Program-made: the position numbers and the translations under genes | Part shown: one piece after another, positions 41,542-59,209 of the stretch | Numbering within the stretch: the first letter of the stretch is position 1 | Layout of the letters: each line of letters starts with the position of its first letter | The notes under the pieces: model-generated | Seen by the model: only the letters and a program-made list of their open reading frames with translations | What the model was told of the DNA's origin: nothing | The model's database searches: none | NCBI RefSeq assembly: GCF_015350995.1 | Contig: NZ_JADKRW010000002.1 | Location: 1-64,000, forward strand | Source: Curtobacterium sp. VKM Ac-1393 | GTDB taxonomy: Bacteria > Actinomycetota > Actinomycetes > Actinomycetales > Microbacteriaceae | Direction: 5' to 3' | Length of the DNA stretch: 64,000 bases

Positions 41542-45144
<3,603 letters not shown>

Positions 45145-55024: not shown

Positions 55025-56938
55025 GTGGCTGGCAGGATCGCGCGGAACGACATCGACGAGGTCCGCTCGCGTGTCAACATCGCCGACGTCGTCGGCGACT
55101 ACGTCACGCTGAAGAACGCGGGCGTCGGCTCGATGAAGGGGCTGTGCCCCTTCCACGACGAGCGCTCTCCGTCGTTCCACGTCCGACCCCAGGTCGGTCG
55201 GTACCACTGCTTCGGCTGCGGCGAGGACGGCGACGTCTTCAGCTTCATCATGGCGCAGGACCACACCACCTTCGCCGAGGCCGTCGAGCGCATGGCGGCC
55301 AAGATCGGCTTCACCCTGCACTACGAAGAGGGCGACGGGCCGCGCACCGACTACAACACCCGGGCTCGGCTGATCGCTGCCAACGAAGCGGCGCTCGAGT
55401 ACTACACGGCGCAGCTCACCACGGCCGCGGCCGACCCAGCCCGGCGGTTCCTGGGGGAGCGCGGGTTCGACCCCTCGGCAGCGCAGCGCTTCGGCGTCGG
55501 GTTCGCGCCGAAGTCCTTCGACATGCTCAAGGACCACCTGCGCGGTCGGGGCTTCACGCTCGAGGAACTCACCTCGGCCGGGCTCGTCAGCCAGGGCGAC
55601 CGATCGCCGTACGACCGGTTCCGTGGGCGCTTGATGTGGCCCATCCGTGACGTCACCGGTGCCACCATCGGGTTCGGTGCCCGCCGCCTGCTCGACGACG
55701 ACAAGGGCCCGAAGTACCTCAACACGCCCGAGACCCCGATCTACCACAAGAGCCAGGTGCTCTACGGGCTCGACCTGGCCCGCCGCGACATCTCGAAGCA
55801 GAAGCAGGTCGTGATCGTCGAGGGCTACACCGACGTCATGGCCTGTCACGTCGCCGGTGTCACCACCGCGGTCGCCACGTGCGGCACGTCGTTCGGCGTC
55901 GACCACATCAAGGTGCTGCGCCCGATGCTCGGCGACCTGGCCGGCGCCGATCCGAACGCCAACGGCGAGGTCGTCTTCACCTTCGACCCCGACGAGGCCG
56001 GGCAGCGTGCCGCGTCGCGCGCCTTCGCCGAGGAGCAGCGGTTCGCCGCGCAGACCTACGTCGCCGTCGCGCCCGGGGGCCTCGACCCGTGCGACCTGCG
56101 GCTGGCCCGCGGTGACGACGCCATCCGCCGCCTCATCACGAACAAGCGCCCGATGTTCGAGTTCATGATCCGCCGAACGCTGGAGGGCCACGACCTCGAA
56201 ACGGTCGAGGGCCGCGTCGGTGCCCTCCGCGCGGCGGCCCCCGTGCTCGCCGGCATCCGCGATCGCTCGCTCACGCAGGGGTACGTCCGCGAACTGGCCG
56301 GCTGGCTCGGCATGGACATGCCCGAGGTCCGTCGGTCGGTCGAGACCGCGCGTCGGCGTGCGGGGTCGACGGACGATCGGTCAGGAGGCCCGGGGCGCGA
56401 CGGTCGCACCGGTCACGGTGCCGACGGGGCGGGTGTGGTCGACGAGCCCGTCGCCGGGATCCGCTCGCTGCCGAACGACCCGATCAGCCGAATGGAGCGC
56501 GACGCCGTCATGGCGATGGTGCAGCAGCCGACCTCGGTCGGAGCGCCGCTGCTCGGGCTCGCCGCATCGGCCACGTTCTCGGCGCCGATGCTCGCCGCCG
56601 TACGAGACGCCGTCGTCGCCAACGTCGACGTCATCGGTGCGGGGGACTGGCTCGACCGGTTGCTCGCTGACGTGCCGACCCCGTTGCGGTCCCTGACGCA
56701 CGAGCTCGCCCTCTCCCCGATCCCCGCGCGCAACGCGGACGACCTGGCGGCGTACTGCCGGAGCATCGTCGTCGCCCTGGTCGAGCGGGACCTGCTTGCG
56801 CGCAAGGCCTCGTTGCTCGGGCAGCTGCAGCGGGCGGACCCGCACGAGCAGGCCGAGCGACGCGCCGAGATCCAGCGGCAGCTCGTCGACATCGACGGGC
56901 AGCGGATGCGGCTCCGCGCCGACGCCGAGGCTTCCTAG
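55025..56938 (+). CDS. dnaG: DNA primase
   Basis: Makes RNA primers for replication, 637 aa. The CHC2 zinc finger has C41, H44, C62 and C65 (GLCPFHDERS and YHCFGCGEDG). The RNA-polymerase core follows. The TOPRIM centre has VIVEGYTDVMACH and VVFTFDPDEAGQRA. A Gly/Asp-rich linker (DRSGGPGRDGRTGHGADG, about residues 450-470) leads to the C-terminal helicase-binding domain. GTG 55025 follows directly after a TAGGAT -10. It ends the dus-dgt-dnaG run and is followed by a 639-nt gap. Confidence 0.95.
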   Translation: MAGRIARNDIDEVRSRVNIADVVGDYVTLKNAGVGSMKGLCPFHDERSPSFHVRPQVGRYHCFGCGEDGDVFSFIMAQDHTTFAEAVERMAAKIGFTLHYEEGDGPRTDYNTRARLIAANEAALEYYTAQLTTAAADPARRFLGERGFDPSAAQRFGVGFAPKSFDMLKDHLRGRGFTLEELTSAGLVSQGDRSPYDRFRGRLMWPIRDVTGATIGFGARRLLDDDKGPKYLNTPETPIYHKSQVLYGLDLARRDISKQKQVVIVEGYTDVMACHVAGVTTAVATCGTSFGVDHIKVLRPMLGDLAGADPNANGEVVFTFDPDEAGQRAASRAFAEEQRFAAQTYVAVAPGGLDPCDLRLARGDDAIRRLITNKRPMFEFMIRRTLEGHDLETVEGRVGALRAAAPVLAGIRDRSLTQGYVRELAGWLGMDMPEVRRSVETARRRAGSTDDRSGGPGRDGRTGHGADGAGVVDEPVAGIRSLPNDPISRMERDAVMAMVQQPTSVGAPLLGLAASATFSAPMLAAVRDAVVANVDVIGAGDWLDRLLADVPTPLRSLTHELALSPIPARNADDLAAYCRSIVVALVERDLLARKASLLGQLQRADPHEQAERRAEIQRQLVDIDGQRMRLRADAEAS

Positions 56939-57028
56939 CCACTTCGCCTGTTCCCGCGGCCCGCGGCCGGCGGCTCTTCGGGGCGCTTGGCGTCGCCGAG
57001 GTCGCACGACGCGCCGCCTGCCGTTCGT

Positions 57029-57289
57029 CCAGGTTCCGAAATCTGCGCATCTGCCCGCGGCCACGCGGCACTTCGTGGAACCTCGGTGAGCCGGCATGTG
57101 GGCGGGGCGTGTCCGCACGACGTGGCTGAGGCAGTGCGACGTGACCACGTTGCAGAGGTGACGGGCGTTGTTGCGGTGCGCCGGGCCTCCCGGTCGATGT
57201 CCGAGGTTCCACAACACGCCGCGTGCGTGCCGCCGAGGTGCCGATGCGAGGCCGAACGTGCGCCGACATGCCGAGATTTCGGAACCTGG
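57029..57289. repeat. Large two-layer inverted repeat between dnaG and the peptide transporter
   Basis: Outer arms CCAGGTTCCGAAATCTGCGC (57029-57048, extending 2 nt further) and their complement ending GATTTCGGAACCTGG (57268-57289) match at 20 of 22 positions across about 260 nt. Inner arms GTGGAACCTCGG (57075-57086) and CCGAGGTTCCAC (57201-57212) are perfect. A CGGGCCTCCCGG motif copy sits near the inner right arm (57182-57193). No convincing protein is encoded. The first 90 nt of the gap show nothing notable. Confidence 0.75.
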
Positions 57290-57357
57290 GGGCGGGGACA
57301 GGGGGGGGGTGGGGCGGCGCGGGCGGGGCGGGCGGGGCGGGCGGGGCGGGCGAGGGG
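57288..57357 (+). repeat. G-rich tract with quadruplex potential and 9-bp repeats
   Basis: Runs of 5, 4, 9 and 4 G separated by C, ACA and T (57288-57314) would readily form a G-quadruplex. A 9-bp unit, GGGCGGGGC, follows three times (57321-57347) with a partial fourth. It lies 221 nt before the substrate-binding protein gene. Confidence 0.8.
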
Positions 57358-57360
57358 CCG

Positions 57361-57451
57361 GTTGCGCCGCGCAACTTTCGTGTGCGGCGCGCCGCACCAC
57401 GGCGCACGAATGATGCATCACGCGACGGGTGCGTGCATTACAGCGGTGTAA
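57361..57451. promoter_or_regulatory. Cluster of short palindromes upstream of the peptide transporter
   Basis: GTTGCG-CCG-CGCAAC (57361-57375), GTGCGGCGCGCCGCAC (57382-57397), TGATGCATCA (57411-57420) and TTACA-GCGG-TGTAA (57438-57451) are all perfect. The last, in an AT-richer setting, is the best operator candidate. No certain -10/-35 pair could be assigned between it and the gene at 57578. Confidence 0.4.
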
Positions 57452-57577
57452 ACAAATCGCCCCCGGTTCGATGAGTTCCGTGACAGGGTGATACCAATGA
57501 GCGTTCCTGACCGGGCACACAGACGTTCCACCCGCCGGTCAGGACTCTTGCACCCATCTTCCAGAGAGGCGTCGAAC

Positions 57578-59209
57578 ATGGCATCCGTGTTCAAGAAGCA
57601 CACCACCACGTGGGGTCGGCGCGGCATCGCGCTCGGCGCCGGGGCAGCAGCGACGGCGCTGGTGCTGACCGGTTGCGCGAGCAGCAGCGTGAGCGACACC
57701 GAGCTGAAGGGCCTGAGCATCGGGACGACGGACAAGATCACCTCCCTCGACCCGGCCGGCTCCTACGACAACGGTTCCTTCGCCGTGCAGAACCAGGTCT
57801 TCCCGTTCCTGATGAACACGCCCGTGGGCAGCCCGGACGTCGAGCCGGACATCGCCACGAAGGCGGAGTTCACGAACCCGACCACGTACGAGGTCACCCT
57901 CAAGGACGGGCTCGAGTTCGCGAACGGCAACAAGCTCACCTCGAGTGACGTGAAGTTCTCGTTCGACCGCGAGCTCAAGATCAACAACGAGAACGGCCCG
58001 CAGTCGCTGCTGGCCAACCTGAAGAGCATCGACACCCCGGACGACACGACGGTGGTCTTCAACCTCGACCACGCGGACCAGACCTGGCCGCAGGTGCTCT
58101 CGAGCCCCGCCGGCCCGATCGTGGACGAGGACGTCTTCAGCGCGACGAAGCTCACCAGCGCCGACGACATCGTCAAGGGCAAGGCGTTCGCCGGGCAGTA
58201 CCAGATCAGCTCCTACAAGGAGAACCAGCTGATCCAGTACAAGACGAACCCGAAGTACGACGGTCTGCTCGGCAAGGCGAAGACCTCCGAGGTGACGGCC
58301 AACTACTACACGAAGGAGACCGACCTCAAGCTCGCCGTGCAGCAGGGCGACGTCGACGTGGCGTACCGCTCCCTGACGCCGACCGACATCTCGGATCTCC
58401 GCAAGGACGACAAGCTCAAGGTCACCGATGGCCCCGGCGGCGAGATCCGCTACGTGGTCTTCAACTTCAAGACGCAGCCGTACGGCACCGGTCAGGACGA
58501 CGCCGACGAGGCGAAGGCCCTCGCAGTGCGCCAGGCCGCCGCTGACGTGGTCGACCGCGCCGCCCTGGCGAAGGAGGTCTACAACGACACCTTCACGCCG
58601 CTGTACTCGATGGTGCCGGACGGCCTCACCGGTGCGGTCCAGCCGTTCAAGGACATGTACGGCGACGGTGATGGCGGCCCGGACGTGTCGAAGGCGAAGA
58701 AGACCCTCGCCGACGCCGGTGTCTCCGGCAAGGTGCAGCTCGACATCCAGTACGCGCCCGACCACTACGGTTCGGCCTCGGACGACGAGTACGCGCTGCT
58801 GAAGACCCAGCTCGAGGACTCGGGCCTGTTCACCGTCAACATCCAGTCGACGGTCTACACGACCTACGCCCAGGAGCGCACCAAGGACGCCTACCCGGAG
58901 TACCAGCTCGGCTGGTTCCCGGACTTCTCCGACGCCGACAACTACCTGTCGCCGTTCTTCACCAAGGAGAACTTCGTCCAGAACCACTACGACGACTCGG
59001 TCATCCAGGACCTCATCGCGAAGGAGCAGGCGGAGTCCGACCCGGACAAGCGTGCCGACCTGATCGAGCAGGCCCAGGAGCGCGAAGCAACGCAGATCTC
59101 GACGCTGCCGCTGCTGCAGGGCAAGTCCGTCGCCGTCGCCGGCAAGGACGTCAAGGGCCTGACCCTCGACGCCTCGTTCAAGTTCCGGTACGCCACCCTC
59201 AGCAAGTAG
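57578..59209 (+). CDS. Peptide ABC transporter substrate-binding lipoprotein (family 5)
   Basis: Extracytoplasmic receptor of an oligopeptide/dipeptide-type importer, 543 aa. ATG 57578 follows GAGAGGC and begins MASVFKKHTTTWGRRGIALG; an open frame 30 codons longer lacks support. The signal peptide ends at a lipobox LVLTGCASS with lipidated Cys33. The SBP_bac_5 fold shows the opening GTTDKITSLDPAGSYDNGSF, then VTLKDGLEFANGNKLTSSDV and KFSFDRELKI, and ends KGLTLDASFKFRYATLSK. A very strong hairpin separates it from the permease genes, so it may be made in excess over them. Confidence 0.93.
   Translation: MASVFKKHTTTWGRRGIALGAGAAATALVLTGCASSSVSDTELKGLSIGTTDKITSLDPAGSYDNGSFAVQNQVFPFLMNTPVGSPDVEPDIATKAEFTNPTTYEVTLKDGLEFANGNKLTSSDVKFSFDRELKINNENGPQSLLANLKSIDTPDDTTVVFNLDHADQTWPQVLSSPAGPIVDEDVFSATKLTSADDIVKGKAFAGQYQISSYKENQLIQYKTNPKYDGLLGKAKTSEVTANYYTKETDLKLAVQQGDVDVAYRSLTPTDISDLRKDDKLKVTDGPGGEIRYVVFNFKTQPYGTGQDDADEAKALAVRQAAADVVDRAALAKEVYNDTFTPLYSMVPDGLTGAVQPFKDMYGDGDGGPDVSKAKKTLADAGVSGKVQLDIQYAPDHYGSASDDEYALLKTQLEDSGLFTVNIQSTVYTTYAQERTKDAYPEYQLGWFPDFSDADNYLSPFFTKENFVQNHYDDSVIQDLIAKEQAESDPDKRADLIEQAQEREATQISTLPLLQGKSVAVAGKDVKGLTLDASFKFRYATLSK

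Follow-up and report, generated by a model that had tools for sequence, protein, structure and literature searches.

The 64-kb window, meaning the whole 64,000-nucleotide stretch of Curtobacterium DNA that was analyzed, contains a 639-nt noncoding gap (positions 56939 to 57577) between a dnaG-like gene (55025 to 56938) and a gene for a peptide-binding protein (57578 to 59209), both names having been read from the open reading frames. The original prediction described a two-layer inverted repeat, a G-run block, and four palindromes in this gap, and proposed a decayed mobile element, an unrecognized RNA, or a regulatory hub. The inverted repeat was recovered, with outer arms at 57029 to 57050 and 57268 to 57289 matched at 20 of 22 positions and perfect inner arms at 57075 to 57086 and 57201 to 57212. 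The best ungapped inverted-repeat score in the gap was 16, compared to a maximum of 12 among 40 dinucleotide shuffles. The four G-runs were also present, starting at 57288, 57294, 57301, and 57311 and followed by GGGGCGGGC-type repeats to approximately 57359, and two G4 motifs matched within this block. The palindromes were less distinctive. When those shorter than 10 nt were left out, two perfect ones were counted (57382 to 57397, 16 nt; 57411 to 57420, 10 nt), a number that 44% of 300 shuffles reached and that is therefore not above chance.

The arms were not specific to the gap, as the arm sequence CCGAGGTTCCAC was found again at 43106 in the window. What was reported as a two-layer inverted repeat consists of two copies, in opposite orientation, of one 88-nt dispersed repeat, designated family 1 (Table 1). 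Each copy supplies one of its ends to the outer arms and the other to the inner arms; in the shorter copy, the outer end forms the outer arm and the inner end forms the inner arm. Both layers therefore have one cause. The site of the full copy was also occupied in three relatives, G011, G005, and G004 (G000 is the window's own genome, other G numbers are genomes of relatives, and L numbers are examined loci). In an alignment of the gap from these four species, one additional neighboring copy was found in G005 and G004, and the G-tract was missing at the same site in G011. In the place of the partial fragment at the end of the shorter copy, G004 and G005 had weak profile matches (∼17 bits).

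Table 1. Repeat copies and adjoining features in the window; the name leuA-like was read from the open reading frame
Feature	Position	Strand	Details
Full family 1 repeat copy	57202..57288	+	nhmmer with own-genome profile, 66 bits; 72 to 85% identity to other genomic copies; modules begin at 57202 (A) and 57234 (B, CGAGGTGCC), with the imperfect hairpin C at 57264 to 57289
Shorter inverted copy	57030..57098	-	nhmmer, 34.5 bits; also in G011, G005, and G004
Partial A/B-type fragment, weak	56997..57046	+	nhmmer, 25 bits, model positions 1 to 50; overlaps end of shorter copy
G-run tract adjoining C end of full copy	57288..57359	+	runs of 5, 4, 9, and 4 G
Interior between the two copies	57099..57201	.	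alignable in four species
Conserved upstream region of the peptide-binding-protein gene	57360..57577	+	palindromes GTGCGGCGCGCCGCAC and TGATGCATCA; outside the repeat
Degenerate repeat copy	43107..43187	-	nhmmer, 28.9 bits; upstream of a leuA-like gene (43369 to 45144)

The sequence from approximately 57360 onward was alignable in many members of the genus as well as in the four-species alignment. It is probably the promoter/operator region of the peptide-binding-protein gene, independent of the repeats. The proposed regulatory hub was thus resolved into two things, the repeats (57030 to 57288) and a separate conserved upstream region that bears both palindromes.

A model of the repeat, 88 positions long, was built by aligning own-genome copies and iterating the profile. 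In the consensus of 31 copies, CGAGGTTCC occurs at position 1 and again at position 33, with CGAGATGCC, a degenerate form, at position 63 and the inverse, GGAACCTCG, at positions 80 to 88. Three conserved modules (A, B, and C) recur ∼31 nt apart, approximately three turns of DNA, and the last is an imperfect hairpin. The modules were 84 to 87% alike among the 31 copies and the spacers 41 to 47%. Total length was also uniform, 88 nt in 31 of 50 copies and 85 to 88 nt in 44 of them. Module C is a 26-nt imperfect palindrome of 11 pairs, within the 20 to 40 nt of the imperfect palindromes of REPs, and 2 of its 11 pairs were mismatched in 20 to 21 of the 31 copies. Neither of the REP tags, GTAG or CGTC, was seen by eye in the consensus of the 31 copies. 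Of 50 copies, 25 had a G4 motif within 80 nt past the C end, compared to 6 with a G4 motif upstream of the A end and none with a C4 motif past the C end. The G-runs may be a preferred target mark or a part of the element.

Comparison of the gap with its own genome by BLAST yielded 105 matches, some of which count one copy twice, and most fell at query positions ∼262 to 352 or in the mirror part. The C-end motif matched 72 times in this genome (the palindrome may be counted twice), compared to no matches for the reversed control. In the 37 own-genome loci that were examined there were 55 distinct copies, and further C-end motif matches lie outside these loci. The 50 fullest copies (more than 70 model positions) were situated in convergent (27), tandem (22), or divergent (1) gaps, and none was in a predicted gene, with genes called by a codon-usage script trained on the window. 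Thus, as in REPs with their many dispersed copies confined to noncoding gaps, 50 of 50 were outside genes and 49 of 50 were between convergent or tandem genes. Counted by region, 19 of the 36 copy-bearing regions were convergent, 16 tandem, and 1 divergent; for comparison, the window's own gaps of at least 60 nt comprise 4 convergent, 17 tandem, and 5 divergent gaps. Single copies predominated, with one full copy only in 24 of the 36 regions. Within tandem gene pairs, 17 of 22 copies had the orientation opposite to that of the neighboring genes.

The modules are maintained, because at orthologous sites in sister species they differed far less than the spacers did. In 29 orthologous pairs, 75 of 1,682 module positions (4.5%) and 194 of 870 spacer positions (22.3%) were different, and the direction of the difference held in 28 of the 29; these pairs were chosen, equal-length 88-nt copies from mostly one-to-one loci, and some loci entered two or three pairs. 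Six further orthologue comparisons (two pairs and the ambiguous L009/L246/L265 group) agreed in direction, with divergence of 0.02 to 0.16 in modules and 0.13 to 0.30 in spacers. Over 15 separate loci, divergence was 6.0% in module A, 1.8% in module B, and ∼25% in spacers. This pattern was also seen at the window gap itself when the four species were compared. Retrieval of some loci via module C biases C toward low divergence, and this bias does not extend to A or B. The mobile element originally proposed therefore holds insofar as the arms are copies of a dispersed repeat, but "decayed" describes it badly, because the modules have diverged so much less than the spacers. Constraint of this kind, with fixed spacing, could reflect either selection on binding or conversion among copies driven by an enzyme. 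Of the copy loci fetched from G011 (20) and G005 (20), 19 and 19, respectively, were matched by eye to a copy-bearing locus in at least one of the other two genomes among G000, G005, and G011. Recent movement was not seen, since most of the family 1 copies that were compared are common to orthologous sites.

Family 1 is amplified in G000, G005, and G011. Among 66 genomes searched with the C-end motif (up to two mismatches), only G000 (72 matches), G011 (62), and G005 (53) had many copies, and every other genome had 10 or fewer. With up to one mismatch, 8 of 299 genomes of the bacterial family had matches, 44 in G000 and one in each of the seven others. An exact 19-mer was found in four stretches in named genomes, in a search from which near relatives were possibly left out. 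Three of these were in Curtobacterium flaccumfaciens (CP121450.1) or C. aurantiacum; the fourth, on a contig of a Sedimentisphaerales metagenome-assembled genome (JAFGBG010000090.1; L091), was accompanied by a partial repeat-like match of 21 bits and reflects either chance or a foreign contig. The repeat had no match in plasmids.

In five genomes, pairs of repeats ∼1.2 kb apart enclosed one gene, with a product of ∼305 amino acids. These genomes (G011, G005, G004, G021, and G043) were picked because they showed such pairs, and in all of them near-full repeats were present on both sides of the gene, inverted, with the C ends outward. In G043 (L107/L114) the gene is split between two frames, by a frameshift or by a sequencing error in a genome rated 65% complete. 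Homologues were divided into group 1 (more than 215 bits) and paralogues below this value (group 2), although three loci below the cutoff have the kinase/groEL neighbors of group 1. Inverted-repeat flanks scoring at least 25 were found at 50 of 57 group 1 loci versus 8 of 44 paralogues, L161 having been left out because its flank was too short. The control in direct orientation also reached 25 at 35 of 57 group 1 loci and at 9 of the 44 paralogues, a consequence of the palindromic nature of the repeats and of their presence in several copies. The 50 of 57 are not independent observations, because the gene is at one conserved place in nearly all genomes: among 58 group 1 loci, a histidine kinase gene was a neighbor in 55, groEL in 52, and either or both in 56, with neither found only in G011 and G005. 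Like RAYT genes, the enclosed gene is a partner placed between inverted repeat copies, but it is Vsr-like.

Weak profile matches suggest that the ∼300-amino-acid protein is a nuclease of the Vsr/MTES_1575 type, with a PD-(D/E)XK-like fold. The MTES_1575 REase profile (PF18741) matched 14 of 47 aligned members (best E value, 8e-6), and 33 of the 47 had no match at 0.1; scores among the members scored were 15.1 to 28.8 bits, below the Pfam cutoff of 38.2. DUF559 (PF04480) matched weakly in 14 of the 47 at 0.1. Five residues, E197, D230, E241, D243, and H247, were invariant in 47 sequences and, judged by family motifs, may be catalytic. An N-terminal AbiEi-like domain is possible, as one of the 47 members matched AbiEi weakly in Pfam and one of three proteins matched it in PADLOC (0.0027). 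Several proteins, including that of G011, had no Pfam match, none of three proteins matched NCBIfam, and a PDB profile search found no solved relative. The RAYT-type domain Y1_Tnp (PF01797) was found in 0 of 7 Curtobacterium genomes, compared to 5 of 14 control genomes. A phage source was considered and rejected, the protein being without relatives in viral contigs.

The nuclease gene with its repeats was found at two chromosomal sites. In G005 and G011 the unit is at locus A, and in relatives it is at the kinase/groEL site, locus B. When the locus A unit of G011 was compared with its locus B counterparts in G004 and G021, similarity stopped at the outer repeat ends or close to them. At the 5′ end, for instance, the repeat was alike in G011 and G004/G021 and the sequence outside it was unlike. 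For the locus B unit of G043, the blastn match with the locus A unit ended short of one repeat. The unit is thus situated at different chromosomal sites, with homology ending at its ends in the comparisons with G004 and G021. Locus A was unoccupied in G001, G004, and G007; for four more genomes, the match was limited to one flank. Comparison by eye of the filled site (G005 and G011) with the empty site (G001, G004, and G007), whose flanks have diverged, revealed no clear target duplication.

Both G005 and G011 have kept two family 1 repeats at locus B. Between those of G011 lie ∼95 nt matching the region upstream of the gene at its present place, locus A (score of 68, against at most 17 in shuffles), and locus B of G011 therefore reads as an internally deleted nuclease unit; the locus B sequence of G005 is similar. 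In the window's own genome, locus A (L102, C12:92500-97000) has kept the left flank, the repeats, and ∼95 nt of the nuclease gene's upstream sequence, and genes for a putative oxidoreductase (SDR) and a MerR-type regulator replace the nuclease gene between the two repeats. The sole group 1 gene of this genome (C15:49104-49952) is 59% identical and is flanked by a repeat of another type, designated family 2. The family 1 copies in G000 look like orphans, because a close partner gene was not found in this genome. The interpretation of the pair in the window gap as another internally deleted nuclease unit found no support, as local alignments of its interior with the nuclease gene and its borders stayed within the shuffle range.

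In other species the gene is flanked by different repeats, among them palindromes of the GGTCAC type and of the GCGATCTC type. The family 2 motif occurred 10 to 79 times in 17 of 66 genomes, and a third motif, family 3, occurred 12 to 88 times in 10 of 66; the reversed controls gave single matches in two genomes and in one genome, respectively. The family that flanks the gene tended to be the family amplified elsewhere in the same genome. Over 61 loci, at least eight further copies were present in 12 of 16 cases with a family 2 flank motif versus 7 of 45 without it, in 7 of 9 versus 3 of 52 for family 3, and in 3 of 6 versus 1 of 55 (G000) for family 1; the three families were chosen after the flanks had been seen, and the species are not independent, with kinship ignored. 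Of the 31 genome-family cases in which the flank had the motif, 22 had the same family amplified. The motif pointed outward on both sides in 12 cases for family 2, 5 for family 3, and 5 for family 1.

The coupling had exceptions of both kinds. Family 2 was present in 17 to 31 copies without its own flank motif in G004, G013, G020, and G077, and family 3 in 12 to 40 copies in G012, G044, and G062. Conversely, few further copies accompanied a family 1 flank in G004 (6), G021 (4), and G080 (0). The window's genome is itself an exception, with 72 family 1 matches, only 4 family 2 matches, and a group 1 gene of the family 2 type.

A similar arrangement was found beyond the genus. A homologue in Arthrobacter sp. 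ERGS1:01 (WP_054009319.1; 32% identity) is bracketed by an inverted repeat whose two 20-nt arms are identical. This repeat is palindromic, differs in sequence from family 1, and occurs at 25 places in its record. In 100 kb of this record there were 17 matches, all in the first 50 kb, of which 15 were intergenic and 2 overlapped the end of a coding sequence. The other three of the four homologues from the plasmid collection, with gene ends estimated, had no flanking inverted repeat. The Arthrobacter record, NZ_CP012477.1 (L243, 180000 to 229999), is labeled a plasmid and carries lysS, disA, and radA; it is therefore probably a piece of chromosome or a second chromosome.

The association of the repeat with the nuclease gene is well supported, and the flanking repeats on this nuclease-like gene suggest an enzyme-and-repeat partnership that has not been described. 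The repeats in the gap are best read as a REP-like system with a non-RAYT nuclease, an explanation that we regard as somewhat probable. We infer that the protein is an active nuclease that recognizes the repeat and mobilizes or maintains it. By analogy, the repeat and the nuclease likely work in the manner of a REP-RAYT pair: the Vsr/MTES_1575-type protein would bind the repeat modules and would cut or nick at the hairpin end, and this cutting or nicking would cause repeats to be copied, moved, or maintained in noncoding gaps, mostly behind genes. Family 1 would be one of several Curtobacterium families that have a Vsr/MTES_1575-type partner and hairpin ends facing outward. A broader proposal, which we advance tentatively and consider slightly short of probable, is a second actinobacterial class of REPs in which a Vsr-like PD-(D/E)XK nuclease, not an HUH tyrosine transposase, recognizes the repeats and spreads or maintains them. 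Co-diversification of nucleases and repeats would then produce the species-specific families, and loss of the nuclease would leave constrained orphan repeats, as in this genome.

The partners of REPs, the REP-associated tyrosine transposases (RAYTs) of the HUH/Y1 type, are the subject of several papers (PMC2817692, PMC3116915, and PMC8266576). A 2013 survey describes REPs located mostly in convergent or tandem gaps and RAYT genes flanked by inverted REP copies (PMC3733652). The Curtobacterium repeats resemble REP/REPIN-RAYT systems in being short, palindromic, and extragenic, in numbering tens of copies, often in inverted pairs, and in having a nuclease gene between inverted copies. They differ from them in that the partner is Vsr/MTES_1575-like, with Y1_Tnp/RAYT found in none of the seven genomes, and in that the repeat, at 88 nt with three modules, is longer and has neither tag in its consensus. 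Membership in a RAYT system was excluded on account of this different enzyme and the lack of Y1_Tnp in the seven genomes. CGTC-tagged REPs, which according to the 2013 survey have no known mobilizer, are similar in being REP-like repeats without a RAYT, but the Curtobacterium consensus lacks their CGTC tag (PMC3733652). Neither "Actinobacteria" nor "Vsr" occurs in the main text of that survey. PMC3710099 counts the MTES_1575 REase among the novel Vsr-type REases; the domain is there part of a large multidomain protein. The Curtobacterium protein is like the MTES_1575 REase, DUF559, and Vsr nucleases in its C-terminal domain, which weakly matches PF18741 and PF04480, and differs in being a stand-alone protein of ∼300 amino acids bracketed by dispersed repeats. 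Among the matches listed in the open-licence literature, searched by titles and abstract openings, there was no report of REP-like repeats tied to a Vsr-like nuclease.

Other explanations account for parts of these observations. The copies might instead be operators or architectural sites maintained by the host for a DNA-binding protein, perhaps the nuclease-like protein itself, that selection keeps behind genes and that are now immobile. The constraint on orthologous modules with their fixed spacing, the sharing of most compared copies among sister species, and the conserved hairpin mismatches, which suggest recognition of sequence and not of pairing, are consistent with such sites. However, host-maintained sites leave unexplained why inverted copies bracket the nuclease gene, why unit and repeats are found together at a second locus, and why the family changes between species while the flanking pattern persists, and this possibility appears unlikely. 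Even less likely is that the repeats are MITEs of the classical kind, in which case they would be related to a DD(E/D) or other transposon through internal deletion, an unrelated transposase would move them, and the nuclease gene would be a passenger. Like MITEs, the repeats are noncoding, dispersed, and arranged in inverted pairs; pairs with hairpin ends outward recur, and the one at locus B of G011 encloses the remnant of a nuclease unit (G005 reads alike). The survey of transposases covered Y1_Tnp only. Unlike in MITEs, single copies predominate, and the one comparison of a filled with an empty site showed no clear target duplication. A nuclease homologue in another bacterial family is also flanked by repeats, of a different sequence, which speaks against this explanation.

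The unrecognized RNA of the original prediction, here a structured RNA or an attenuator in the gap that separates dnaG from the peptide transporter, received little support and is very improbable. It would suit a gap between two codirectional genes that is conserved in four species, and the hairpin did have a small excess of paired changes (three cells), which 10 to 15 of 500 shuffles equaled. However, nothing in the 64-kb window reached the Rfam gathering score, a simple consensus scan matched no promoter or terminator, the fold energies of the two window copies were no better than those of shuffles, and copies of the repeat sit in unrelated gaps. On balance, because the two hairpin mismatches are conserved and folding is within the range of shuffles, the evidence points to DNA recognized by a protein rather than to RNA, with the excess of paired changes speaking the other way.

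For REP families without a known mobilizer, a linked, conserved Vsr-like gene offers a concrete candidate where a RAYT is not found. If the REP-like reading with a Vsr-like partner is true, a REP-type partnership would be added to the roles of the Vsr-like fold, and a large class of the repeats between genes in Curtobacterium, and perhaps in other Actinomycetota, could be accounted for. The several natural pairs of repeat and gene are suited to swapping tests.

Two minor observations concern the flanks of the nuclease gene and its paralogues. The decamer ACGCGGAAGG was common to both flanks in 17 group 1 loci, and hairpin arms of the ACGCGGAAGG/GGGCCC type recurred beside groEL at locus B (for example, L105 and L106). 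The decamer was rejected as a part of the repeat, as it adjoins groEL at locus B and probably is a terminator arm. Among the paralogues, the group 2 loci L180, L182, L187, L189, L195, and L199 had flanking inverted repeats that scored at least 25, and these paralogues may have their own repeat families.
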